NCBI GenBank assembly: GCA_903873395.1
Contig: CAIQOJ010000087.1
Location: 37,147-101,146, forward strand
Length of the DNA stretch: 64,000 nucleotides
Origin: an uncultured Acidimicrobiaceae bacterium
Lineage (GTDB): Bacteria; Actinomycetota; Acidimicrobiia; Acidimicrobiales; RAAP-2
Direction: 5' to 3'
Shown here: piece by piece, positions 30,432-32,560 of the stretch
How the letters are laid out: the number at the start of each line of letters is the position of its first letter
Numbering within the stretch: position 1 is the first letter of the stretch
The notes under the pieces: generated by a model
What the model was told of the DNA's origin: nothing
What the model saw: only the letters and a program-made list of their open reading frames with translations
Database searches by the model: none
Translations under genes and position numbers: made by a program

Positions 30432-30545
30432 TTAGGCAGATTCGACGCTCTTCGGGGTCATGATCGTCTCGAACTCCACCGGGGTCAACCGGCCGAGACC
30501 GGCCTGGCGCCGACGGCCCGAGTTCTGGGGGTTCGGCCGGGTCAC
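30432..30545 (-). mobile_element. C-terminal remnant of an IS3-family-like transposase
   Basis: Minus strand reads ...RRRQAGLGRLTPVEFETIMTPKSVESA*, like the C-terminus of IS3 OrfB (RRRHxxLGxLTPVEFE), followed by CCGAAACTGTCACCGGATCGTGCAGCAGACC resembling an IS3-family end; no upstream transposase. Confidence 0.65.
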
Positions 30546-30568: not shown

Positions 30569-30645
30569 TGGTGGGGACGGAGGGATTCGAACCCTCACTG
30601 GAAGCGGTTTAAGCGCCCTGCCTCTGCCGATTGGGCTACGTCCCC
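30569..30645 (-). tRNA. tRNA-like gene, class I cloverleaf with UAA anticodon and encoded CCA
   Basis: GGGGACG TA GCCCAATCGGCAGAGGC A GGGCG CTTAAAC CGCTT CCAGT GAGGG TTCGAAT CCCTC CGTCCCC A CCA: perfect acceptor and T stems, 7-nt anticodon loop with TAA at 34-36, 5-nt variable loop. Confidence 0.85.
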
Positions 30646-30672: not shown

Positions 30673-32385
30673 TCAGGTCGTCCGATGTCCGCTGGAAACG
30701 CTGAGTACTTCGGCTACTGCTTCAAGTTCAGCCGACCGGGGATCGTCGATGGCGTGCACCAGGCCGGATGCACCAGGCCAAGGTCCCAGCACAGTGGTCG
30801 GGCGCCGATCCGGCTGCCAACCTGACCAATCGCCCAGGGGAGGGCACGACGGCACGCCCGTCCGGGCCATCGATGCCCATGCCTCACCCATGGCGTCCGA
30901 GAGAGCCAGTGCGTCATCACCTCCGCCTGAGAATGCCTGCACAACCGGGTGGCGCAGCGAGCCGAAGACGAACGGGATCTCGAGTGCATGACACGAACCC
31001 AACACGCCGCCGAACGCCGGTGATGCCCACGTAAACAGGTACGTAAACGTGCCAACTCCTGGCGCCGCTGCTGATGCATGAGCATCGGCCAATCGCACAC
31101 TGGCGACCCGGAAGATCGATTCGGTAGCAATAGCCGACCACAGAGCGAGTGGGTCGGTGGCTTCACCACGTCCGGCGCGCGCATTGGTGACTGCGGCGAC
31201 CACGGCGTCTGCCTGATCGGATCCGCATCCGAGTCGCTCGACCCAGCGCACCAGGCCAGCGCGATCGAGAGAGGTGAGTGCTGGATTGCCCAGGGCGAAG
31301 AAGGCTGCTTCATCACGAGTCGTCCCGACCAGCAGATCGACGCCAGACGCCGATCCCGCAGCCACGGCGTCTACAGGCACAGCAGGCAGAAGCCCGCCAT
31401 CGACCACCGGCGTCAGCAGCAGGCCGGCCGATGCGCCTCCGTGGCTCGTGGGTGCGTATTCCTGTGCTGCGGCCACCAGGGCCTCCACCGGGACGCGCTC
31501 GAGTGCTTGGCGTGTGCATGCCACTCCCAGATGGTCGGCCAACCGCTCGGTTCGCTCGGCTGCGGCTTCAGCTGAGCACGTATAGGCCGGTCCGCTCTCG
31601 ACCACAGCGCGCCGGAAGAGGCCGGATGCTGCCGGGCTGCCCAGCAAGGCCGACACGCTCATCCCGCCGGCCGACTCACCAACGAGGGTGACGTTGTCTG
31701 GGTTGCCGCCGAAACCAGAGATGTAGTCACGCACCCAGGCCAATGCGGCAACCTGATCGGCGAGACCCCAACTCCCCCAGCCGTTCCATGTCTCATCACC
31801 CAACCACGGCTGTCCGTCATCGGCCAGGGCGGGGTGCGCCAAGAAGCCGAGCAGTCCCAGTCGGTAGTTGATCGTGACCACCACCACGTCTTGTTCTCGA
31901 GCCAACAGGCCGCCTCGGGTCAACGCTCCCGATCCAGAACCCGATTGGAACGATCCCCCGTGGATCCACACCAGCACCGGCCGATTGGCTCCATCGAGGC
32001 CTGGGGTCCACACGTTGAGAGCAAGGCAATCTTCGTCCGTCGGCTCGGGCTTGCCGCCCAGGGCTTGGTCCATCGCCCCCTGAACCTGTGGGGCCGCAGG
32101 CCCGAACCCATCGCAATCCCGCACCCCAGCCCAGGGCATGACCGGTCCAGGCGGTCGCCAACGGCGCCCACCTGCGGGCGAACCAGCGTAGGGAACTCCC
32201 GAAAAGGTCCACACTCCGTCGCGCTGCACGCCGGAGATGCGTCCACCGGCTACCTCGATCACGCCGTCACCCATCACACCCTCCAGTCCCGGCCCGAACA
32301 TGCCGATACCAGGGACAACGTAGCCACCAGCGACCGGCCGATGGGCCGGCCAACCGCCGAAGAGATCGCCCACGTCTGATGTCAT
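30673..32385 (-). CDS. Type-B carboxylesterase
   Basis: EDCLALNVWTPGLDGANRPVLVWIHGGSFQSGSGSG...VTLVGESAGGMSVSALLGSPAASGLFRRAVVESG; start at MTSDVGDLF uncertain. Confidence 0.93.
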   Translation of the reverse strand: MTSDVGDLFGGWPAHRPVAGGYVVPGIGMFGPGLEGVMGDGVIEVAGGRISGVQRDGVWTFSGVPYAGSPAGGRRWRPPGPVMPWAGVRDCDGFGPAAPQVQGAMDQALGGKPEPTDEDCLALNVWTPGLDGANRPVLVWIHGGSFQSGSGSGALTRGGLLAREQDVVVVTINYRLGLLGFLAHPALADDGQPWLGDETWNGWGSWGLADQVAALAWVRDYISGFGGNPDNVTLVGESAGGMSVSALLGSPAASGLFRRAVVESGPAYTCSAEAAAERTERLADHLGVACTRQALERVPVEALVAAAQEYAPTSHGGASAGLLLTPVVDGGLLPAVPVDAVAAGSASGVDLLVGTTRDEAAFFALGNPALTSLDRAGLVRWVERLGCGSDQADAVVAAVTNARAGRGEATDPLALWSAIATESIFRVASVRLADAHASAAAPGVGTFTYLFTWASPAFGGVLGSCHALEIPFVFGSLRHPVVQAFSGGGDDALALSDAMGEAWASMARTGVPSCPPLGDWSGWQPDRRPTTVLGPWPGASGLVHAIDDPRSAELEAVAEVLSVSSGHRTT

Positions 32386-32560
32386 TGCTGCCAACACCAA
32401 TGTCAACTGTCCAAACAGATGCCGCTGAGGCCCTGCGTCATTCCAGGCCATCGCCCATCGCCTTGCGAGTGGCTGAACAGGTAATTCTTAGCCAGATTGC
32501 ATTGTTTGACCCCCACTGGGGCACTACCGTTCGGGCATGGTCACCGCAGGGAGCAGCACG

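Follow-up and report, generated by a model that had tools for sequence, protein, structure and literature searches.

A short-armed tRNA gene that probably supplies the UUA-reading leucine tRNA of an uncultured Acidimicrobiaceae bacterium

The gene described here raises the question of which amino acid is carried by a bacterial tRNA that has a leucine anticodon but the short variable loop of a class-I tRNA. It lies in a stretch of 64,000 nucleotides (hereafter the window) from the draft genome of an uncultured Acidimicrobiaceae bacterium (G000). The original prediction, which was made from the letters of the window, suggested that it could be a mischarging or regulatory tRNA, a novel isoacceptor, or a recent derivative of another tRNA. 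Our analysis of the gene and its relatives indicates, with a probability of about 0.93, that it makes the ordinary, and probably the only, UUA-reading leucine tRNA of the cell, in class-I form.

A search with ARAGORN found a single tRNA in the window, a tRNA-Leu(taa) of 77 nt with encoded CCA on the minus strand (30569-30645, anticodon at position 35), and the Rfam model RF00005 matched the same gene (30645-30572) with 56.7 bits against a gathering score of 29 (E=1.4e-9). Direct reading agreed with both programs, bearing out the prediction that the gene encodes an intact tRNA of class I whose anticodon is UAA, a combination unexpected for bacterial leucine. The acceptor stem has 7 bp (GGGGACG/CGTCCCC) and the discriminator base is A73 (30572, minus strand). 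The D-arm (positions 10-25 of the tRNA; 30620-30636, minus strand) is of the leucine type, GCC-CAATCGGCAGA-GGC, with a 3-bp stem, a long D-loop, A14 and A15, G18 and G19, and A20a-G21-A22. The anticodon stem (GGGCG/CGCTT) has 5 bp, including two G-U pairs, and it closes the loop CTTAAAC, in which the anticodon UAA (34-36; 30609-30611, minus strand) stands between U33 and A37. The T-arm, GAGGG-TTCGAAT-CCCTC, has a 5-bp stem. Between the anticodon stem and the T-arm there are only 5 nt, CCAGU (44-48; 30597-30601, minus strand), the last of which, U48, pairs with A15. A class-II tRNA would have a variable arm of at least 10 nt that forms a stem here, and the layout of allo-tRNAs or tRNA-Sec (8/4 or 9/3 with a long arm) is also absent, as the window tRNA has 7/5 stems and the 5-nt loop. 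Folded as a single strand, the unmodified RNA is more stable than shuffled sequences (z=-2.45), and in the same prediction the D/anticodon region favours a pairing partly different from the cloverleaf.

No other tRNA gene accompanies it in the window, and it is not part of a tRNA array. It lies 27 nt past the stop codon of a carboxylesterase gene on the minus strand (30673-32451, PF00135), and a scan for promoters and terminators beside it gave nothing useful. Directly 3' of the tRNA gene is a minus-strand frame (30432-30527) that ends in GRRRQAGLGRLTPVEFETIMTPKSVESA-stop and by eye resembles the C-terminus of an IS3-type transposase; no other part of such an element was seen in the sequence read there.

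To place this tRNA within the decoding set of its host, the tRNAs of G000 (a 2.82-Mb draft, 94% complete) were inventoried by an Rfam search followed by ARAGORN on the matched loci. Four class-II leucine tRNAs of 85-86 nt were found, with the anticodons CAA, CAG, UAG and GAG and a stem of about 13-15 nt where the window tRNA has its 5-nt loop, and no second UAA tRNA of any class was found among the 46 Rfam matches. A leucine-type D-arm with a paired 3-bp stem occurs in exactly five tRNAs of this genome, namely these four and the window tRNA. The inventory also includes a tRNA that ARAGORN calls tRNA-Asn with the anticodon AUU (L073, contig C69:469-541), which is unusual in bacteria, and a normal tRNA-Asn(GUU) is present elsewhere in the genome. 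Two patterns, one for class-I UAA and one for class-II UAA genes, were then run on 101 genomes of the host's taxonomic family, each at least 90% complete. The class-I tRNA(UAA) was found in 95 of them, which answers the suggestion to look for the same tRNA in relatives, and the class-II tRNA-Leu(UAA) in none (0/101). The class-II pattern is not blind, as such genes do occur in other families of the host's order. Because of this distribution, and because G000 has no other UAA tRNA that we could detect, the window tRNA is very probably the sole UUA reader of the host's family. The expectation of an additional, normal class-II tRNA-Leu(UAA) is therefore not supported in these genomes. Two other parts of the original prediction stood: the three UUA codons that it named in the window are all in frame in their quoted sequence contexts, and UUA is indeed rare, with one occurrence among the leucine codons of seven neighbouring genes, where CUG and CUC are the commonest.

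We searched for relatives of the gene beyond this family with a pattern that combined the D-arm with the junction between variable loop and T-arm and placed no constraint on the anticodon. In the host's order, matches were found in 106 of 397 genomes and 72 of 204 genera, and a reversed control gave 0 matches. A scan of the GTDB collection returned at least 119 stretches, mostly from actinobacteria. The matches listed include Mycobacterium, Corynebacterium, Nocardia, Rhodococcus, Tsukamurella, Bifidobacterium, Amycolatopsis, Salinispora, Nocardioides and Microbacterium, while the non-actinobacterial ones listed belong to Chthonomonadales, one Rokubacteria MAG, and one deltaproteobacterial MAG. 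A looser pattern, run on 149 genomes sampled across the phylum, matched 41 of them, one match (G456) not being a leucine tRNA by eye. Among viral contigs (IMG/VR), at least 116 stretches contain the class-I tRNA-Leu pattern, and in Lactobacillus phage LP65 class-I UAA, UAG and CAA genes lie close together, three in a row. Genes of this form appear in sequence records simply as tRNA-Leu. Judged by its sequence, the window tRNA is a member of an extensive family of leucine tRNAs in class-I form, found across the actinobacteria, mycobacteria included, and in many phages. Such a distribution, together with the presence of the gene throughout the host's family, does not support the idea of a recent derivative; the nearest of the suggested readings was the novel isoacceptor, which we would specify as a short-armed isoacceptor for leucine whose conservation extends from the family to much more distant lineages. 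Two further loci are of note. In the complete genome of Actinobacteria bacterium IMCC26103 (G419), two class-I tRNA-Leu(UAA) genes lie 13 kb apart (C1:76672 and C1:89599) and differ in their D-arms (GAGACA vs GAGGCA), and class-I UAA and CAG genes are adjacent on a contig of 2.9 kb from a Parvularcula bin (L160, 1422-1556), in what may be a phage tRNA array.

The same relatives bear on whether the gene is functional at all. A degenerate pseudo-tRNA or a sequencing error, with a normal tRNA-Leu(UAA) that escaped detection reading UUA, could be imagined from the rarity of UUA, the occurrence of G-U pairs at two positions of the anticodon stem, and the draft state of the genome. However, neither broken stems nor a lack of conservation was seen: the stems are intact, the gene is conserved across the family, and the class-II gene that this explanation calls for is missing from every family genome searched. 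Across 156 class-I genes, the stems pair in 98-100% of cases at almost every position, a single position showing as many as six standard pair types, and the anticodon-stem pair 31-39 is standard in only 85% of the relatives. Because the stems remain paired while their sequence changes, these compensatory changes indicate selection on a working tRNA, and we consider a pseudogene or an error extremely unlikely.

Several observations point to leucine as the amino acid that a working tRNA of this kind would carry. Among the matches listed, 265 distinct class-I genes from genomes and viral contigs were parsed (parsing failed for one other viral match), and their anticodons are those of leucine in 264, the exception being one viral GTG. 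The discriminator base is A73 in 263 of the 265. As A14, A15, G18, G19, A20a, U48 and C12-C13 were set by the search pattern, their constancy across the set is by construction, but in the window tRNA A73, U8:A14, A15-U48, G18G19 and A20a are all present by direct reading, independent of the pattern. In E. coli, LeuRS needs A73, U8:A14, A15-U48, G18G19, A20a and contacts with the D/T-loop, while the long arm is dispensable, and tRNA-Leu variants without it are still charged (PMC9976931). The features that confer serine identity are the long arm and G73 (PMC9976931), and the window tRNA has neither.

A single LeuRS above the family cut-off was found in each of the nine genomes examined, and the same enzyme must therefore serve leucine tRNAs of both classes. 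A special LeuRS was considered as an explanation and rejected, because an insertion of about 45 residues before the KMSKS motif does not track the class-I tRNA. The LeuRS sequences of G000 and G006 (L233 and L235), both of the window's genus, have KMSKS and lack the insertion, whereas other actinobacterial LeuRS carry it, with KMGKS or KIGKS, and these include the class-I carriers Mycobacterium asiaticum, Nocardia carnea, G037, G030 and G175 (L236 and L237 were left out of this comparison). In the window's genus, what is missing looks like the leucine-specific domain. The window tRNA is very likely charged with leucine, as judged from these identity elements. In the mechanism that we propose, the single bacterial LeuRS would recognise A73, the core formed by A15-U48, U8:A14 and G18G19-A20a, and the D/T-loop corner, and would charge the short-armed tRNA with leucine, while SerRS would presumably be kept off because the tRNA has neither a long arm nor G73. 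The charged tRNA would then read UUA, and probably UUG by wobble.

A class-I leucine gene is only rarely accompanied by the class-II gene of its own anticodon. Leucine tRNA genes of both classes were tabulated in 76 genomes, in a hand-transcribed, pattern-based table that is incomplete and misses some genes. Of the 88 class-I genes, only 3 occur together with a class-II gene for that anticodon in one genome, against 28.0 expected by permutation, and 0 of 20,000 shuffles were as low, although shared descent among the genomes inflates these exclusion statistics. In the 20 genomes where all five leucine anticodons were found, there was no overlap between the classes (0/20). The one-contig genome G030, for example, has CAA and UAG in class I and UAA, GAG and CAG in class II, while Amycolatopsis roodepoortensis has CAA, UAG and UAA in class I and GAG and CAG in class II. 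The anticodons that switch are UAA, UAG and CAA, with different ones affected in different families, and CAG and GAG, the anticodons for CUG and CUC, are class II nearly everywhere. The exceptions include a Rokubacteria MAG with UAA in both classes and, most clearly, Actinosynnema sp. ALI-1.44 (G441, L186) with both CAA and GAG in both; class-I tRNA-Leu(GAG), present in the latter, is rare. We propose that class-I isoacceptors for the three switching anticodons would have taken the place of their class-II counterparts genome by genome.

This one-for-one substitution also bears on the possibility that the window tRNA carries another amino acid, as a mischarging or code-altering tRNA. Its class-I form is compatible with that, as is the raw similarity of its D- and T-arms, which are about as close to tRNA-Asn, tRNA-Thr, tRNA-Lys and tRNA-Trp as to class-II tRNA-Leu. 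However, among the matches listed its relatives vary among leucine anticodons only, it combines the leucine D-arm with A73, and a different amino acid would leave UUA without a dedicated leucine reader in the host's family. We therefore regard another amino acid as very improbable, and the proposal of a mischarging tRNA is not supported by the same evidence. As to how the class-I leucine tRNA family arose, the similarity of the D- and T-arms favours neither of the origins that we considered, the loss of the long arm from a class-II tRNA-Leu or descent from another class-I tRNA.

Because class-I tRNA-Leu genes are carried by phages, phages may have spread them, and the class-I lineage as a whole may have a distant origin in phages. 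The frequency of such genes in phages, on more than 100 IMG/VR contigs and in the trio of LP65, might even suggest that the window gene is itself a phage-derived accessory that supplements decoding rather than a housekeeping tRNA of the host. We find this highly unlikely, as the host's family carries it as one conserved gene on the chromosome, with no class-II counterpart, and in the window it is solitary.

A leucine tRNA of this form can be compared with class-II tRNA-Leu, as in E. coli and G000. The two are alike in the leucine anticodon, A73, U8:A14, A15-U48, G18G19, A20a-G21-A22, the 3-bp D-stem and the presence of a single LeuRS, and differ in that the window tRNA has its 5-nt loop instead of the long arm, A9 instead of G9, and C12-G23 with C13/A22 instead of G12-C23 with G13/A22. 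Animal mitochondrial tRNA-Leu(UUR) is likewise of class-I form, decodes UUA and UUG, and is charged with leucine through A73 and A14 (PMC9976931). In contrast to these tRNAs, which are encoded in mtDNA and charged by a mitochondrial LeuRS, the window tRNA comes from a bacterial genome as part of a bacterial and phage gene family, has stable stems, and is the predicted substrate of the general bacterial LeuRS.

The UUA reader of Streptomyces, the tRNA-Leu(UAA) bldA, also serves a GC-rich actinobacterium; it is class II, and its regulatory role has been demonstrated. With UUA rare in a GC-rich genome and only one reader found, a UUA-linked developmental switch besides decoding can be considered. 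We judge it unlikely, and it would add a role to the tRNA, not change its identity.

Short-looped leucine tRNAs have been noted in mycobacteria. In M. mucogenicum and M. phocaicum, a tRNA cluster contains a tRNA-Leu(TAG) with a short variable loop, and the class-II isoacceptor is present as well (PMC6582537), and in M. tuberculosis only Leu-2, -3 and -5 are named as long-looped (PMC11541572), which implies that its other leucine tRNAs are not. These cases, each a single one mentioned in passing, probably belong to the same class-I family. They were the only two remarks on short-armed bacterial tRNA-Leu that we found in a search of the freely accessible literature. For this reason, and because such genes are annotated plainly as tRNA-Leu, priority cannot be firmly claimed.

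A 2023 review states that tRNA-Leu is long-armed everywhere except in animal mitochondria, and the genes described here contradict that rule. The window tRNA is a tRNA-Leu by every functional mark tested, yet it lacks the defining mark of class II. More broadly, though at somewhat less than even odds, class-I tRNA-Leu may be a generally unrecognised lineage on phages and chromosomes that has repeatedly displaced the class-II readers of UUA, UUG and CUA in actinobacteria, many of which, mycobacteria included, would keep a mixed set served by one LeuRS. For tRNA annotation, isotype models based on long-armed tRNA-Leu may mark class-I genes as doubtful. Work on LeuRS of mycobacteria and on toxins that target tRNAs is affected too, as some of the leucine tRNAs involved are class I. 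The natural pairs of class-I and class-II leucine tRNAs make the purpose of the long arm testable, whether it lies in discrimination by SerRS and TyrRS, in stability, or in editing. Many genomes offer a natural experiment in which a single LeuRS must take both forms in one cell.
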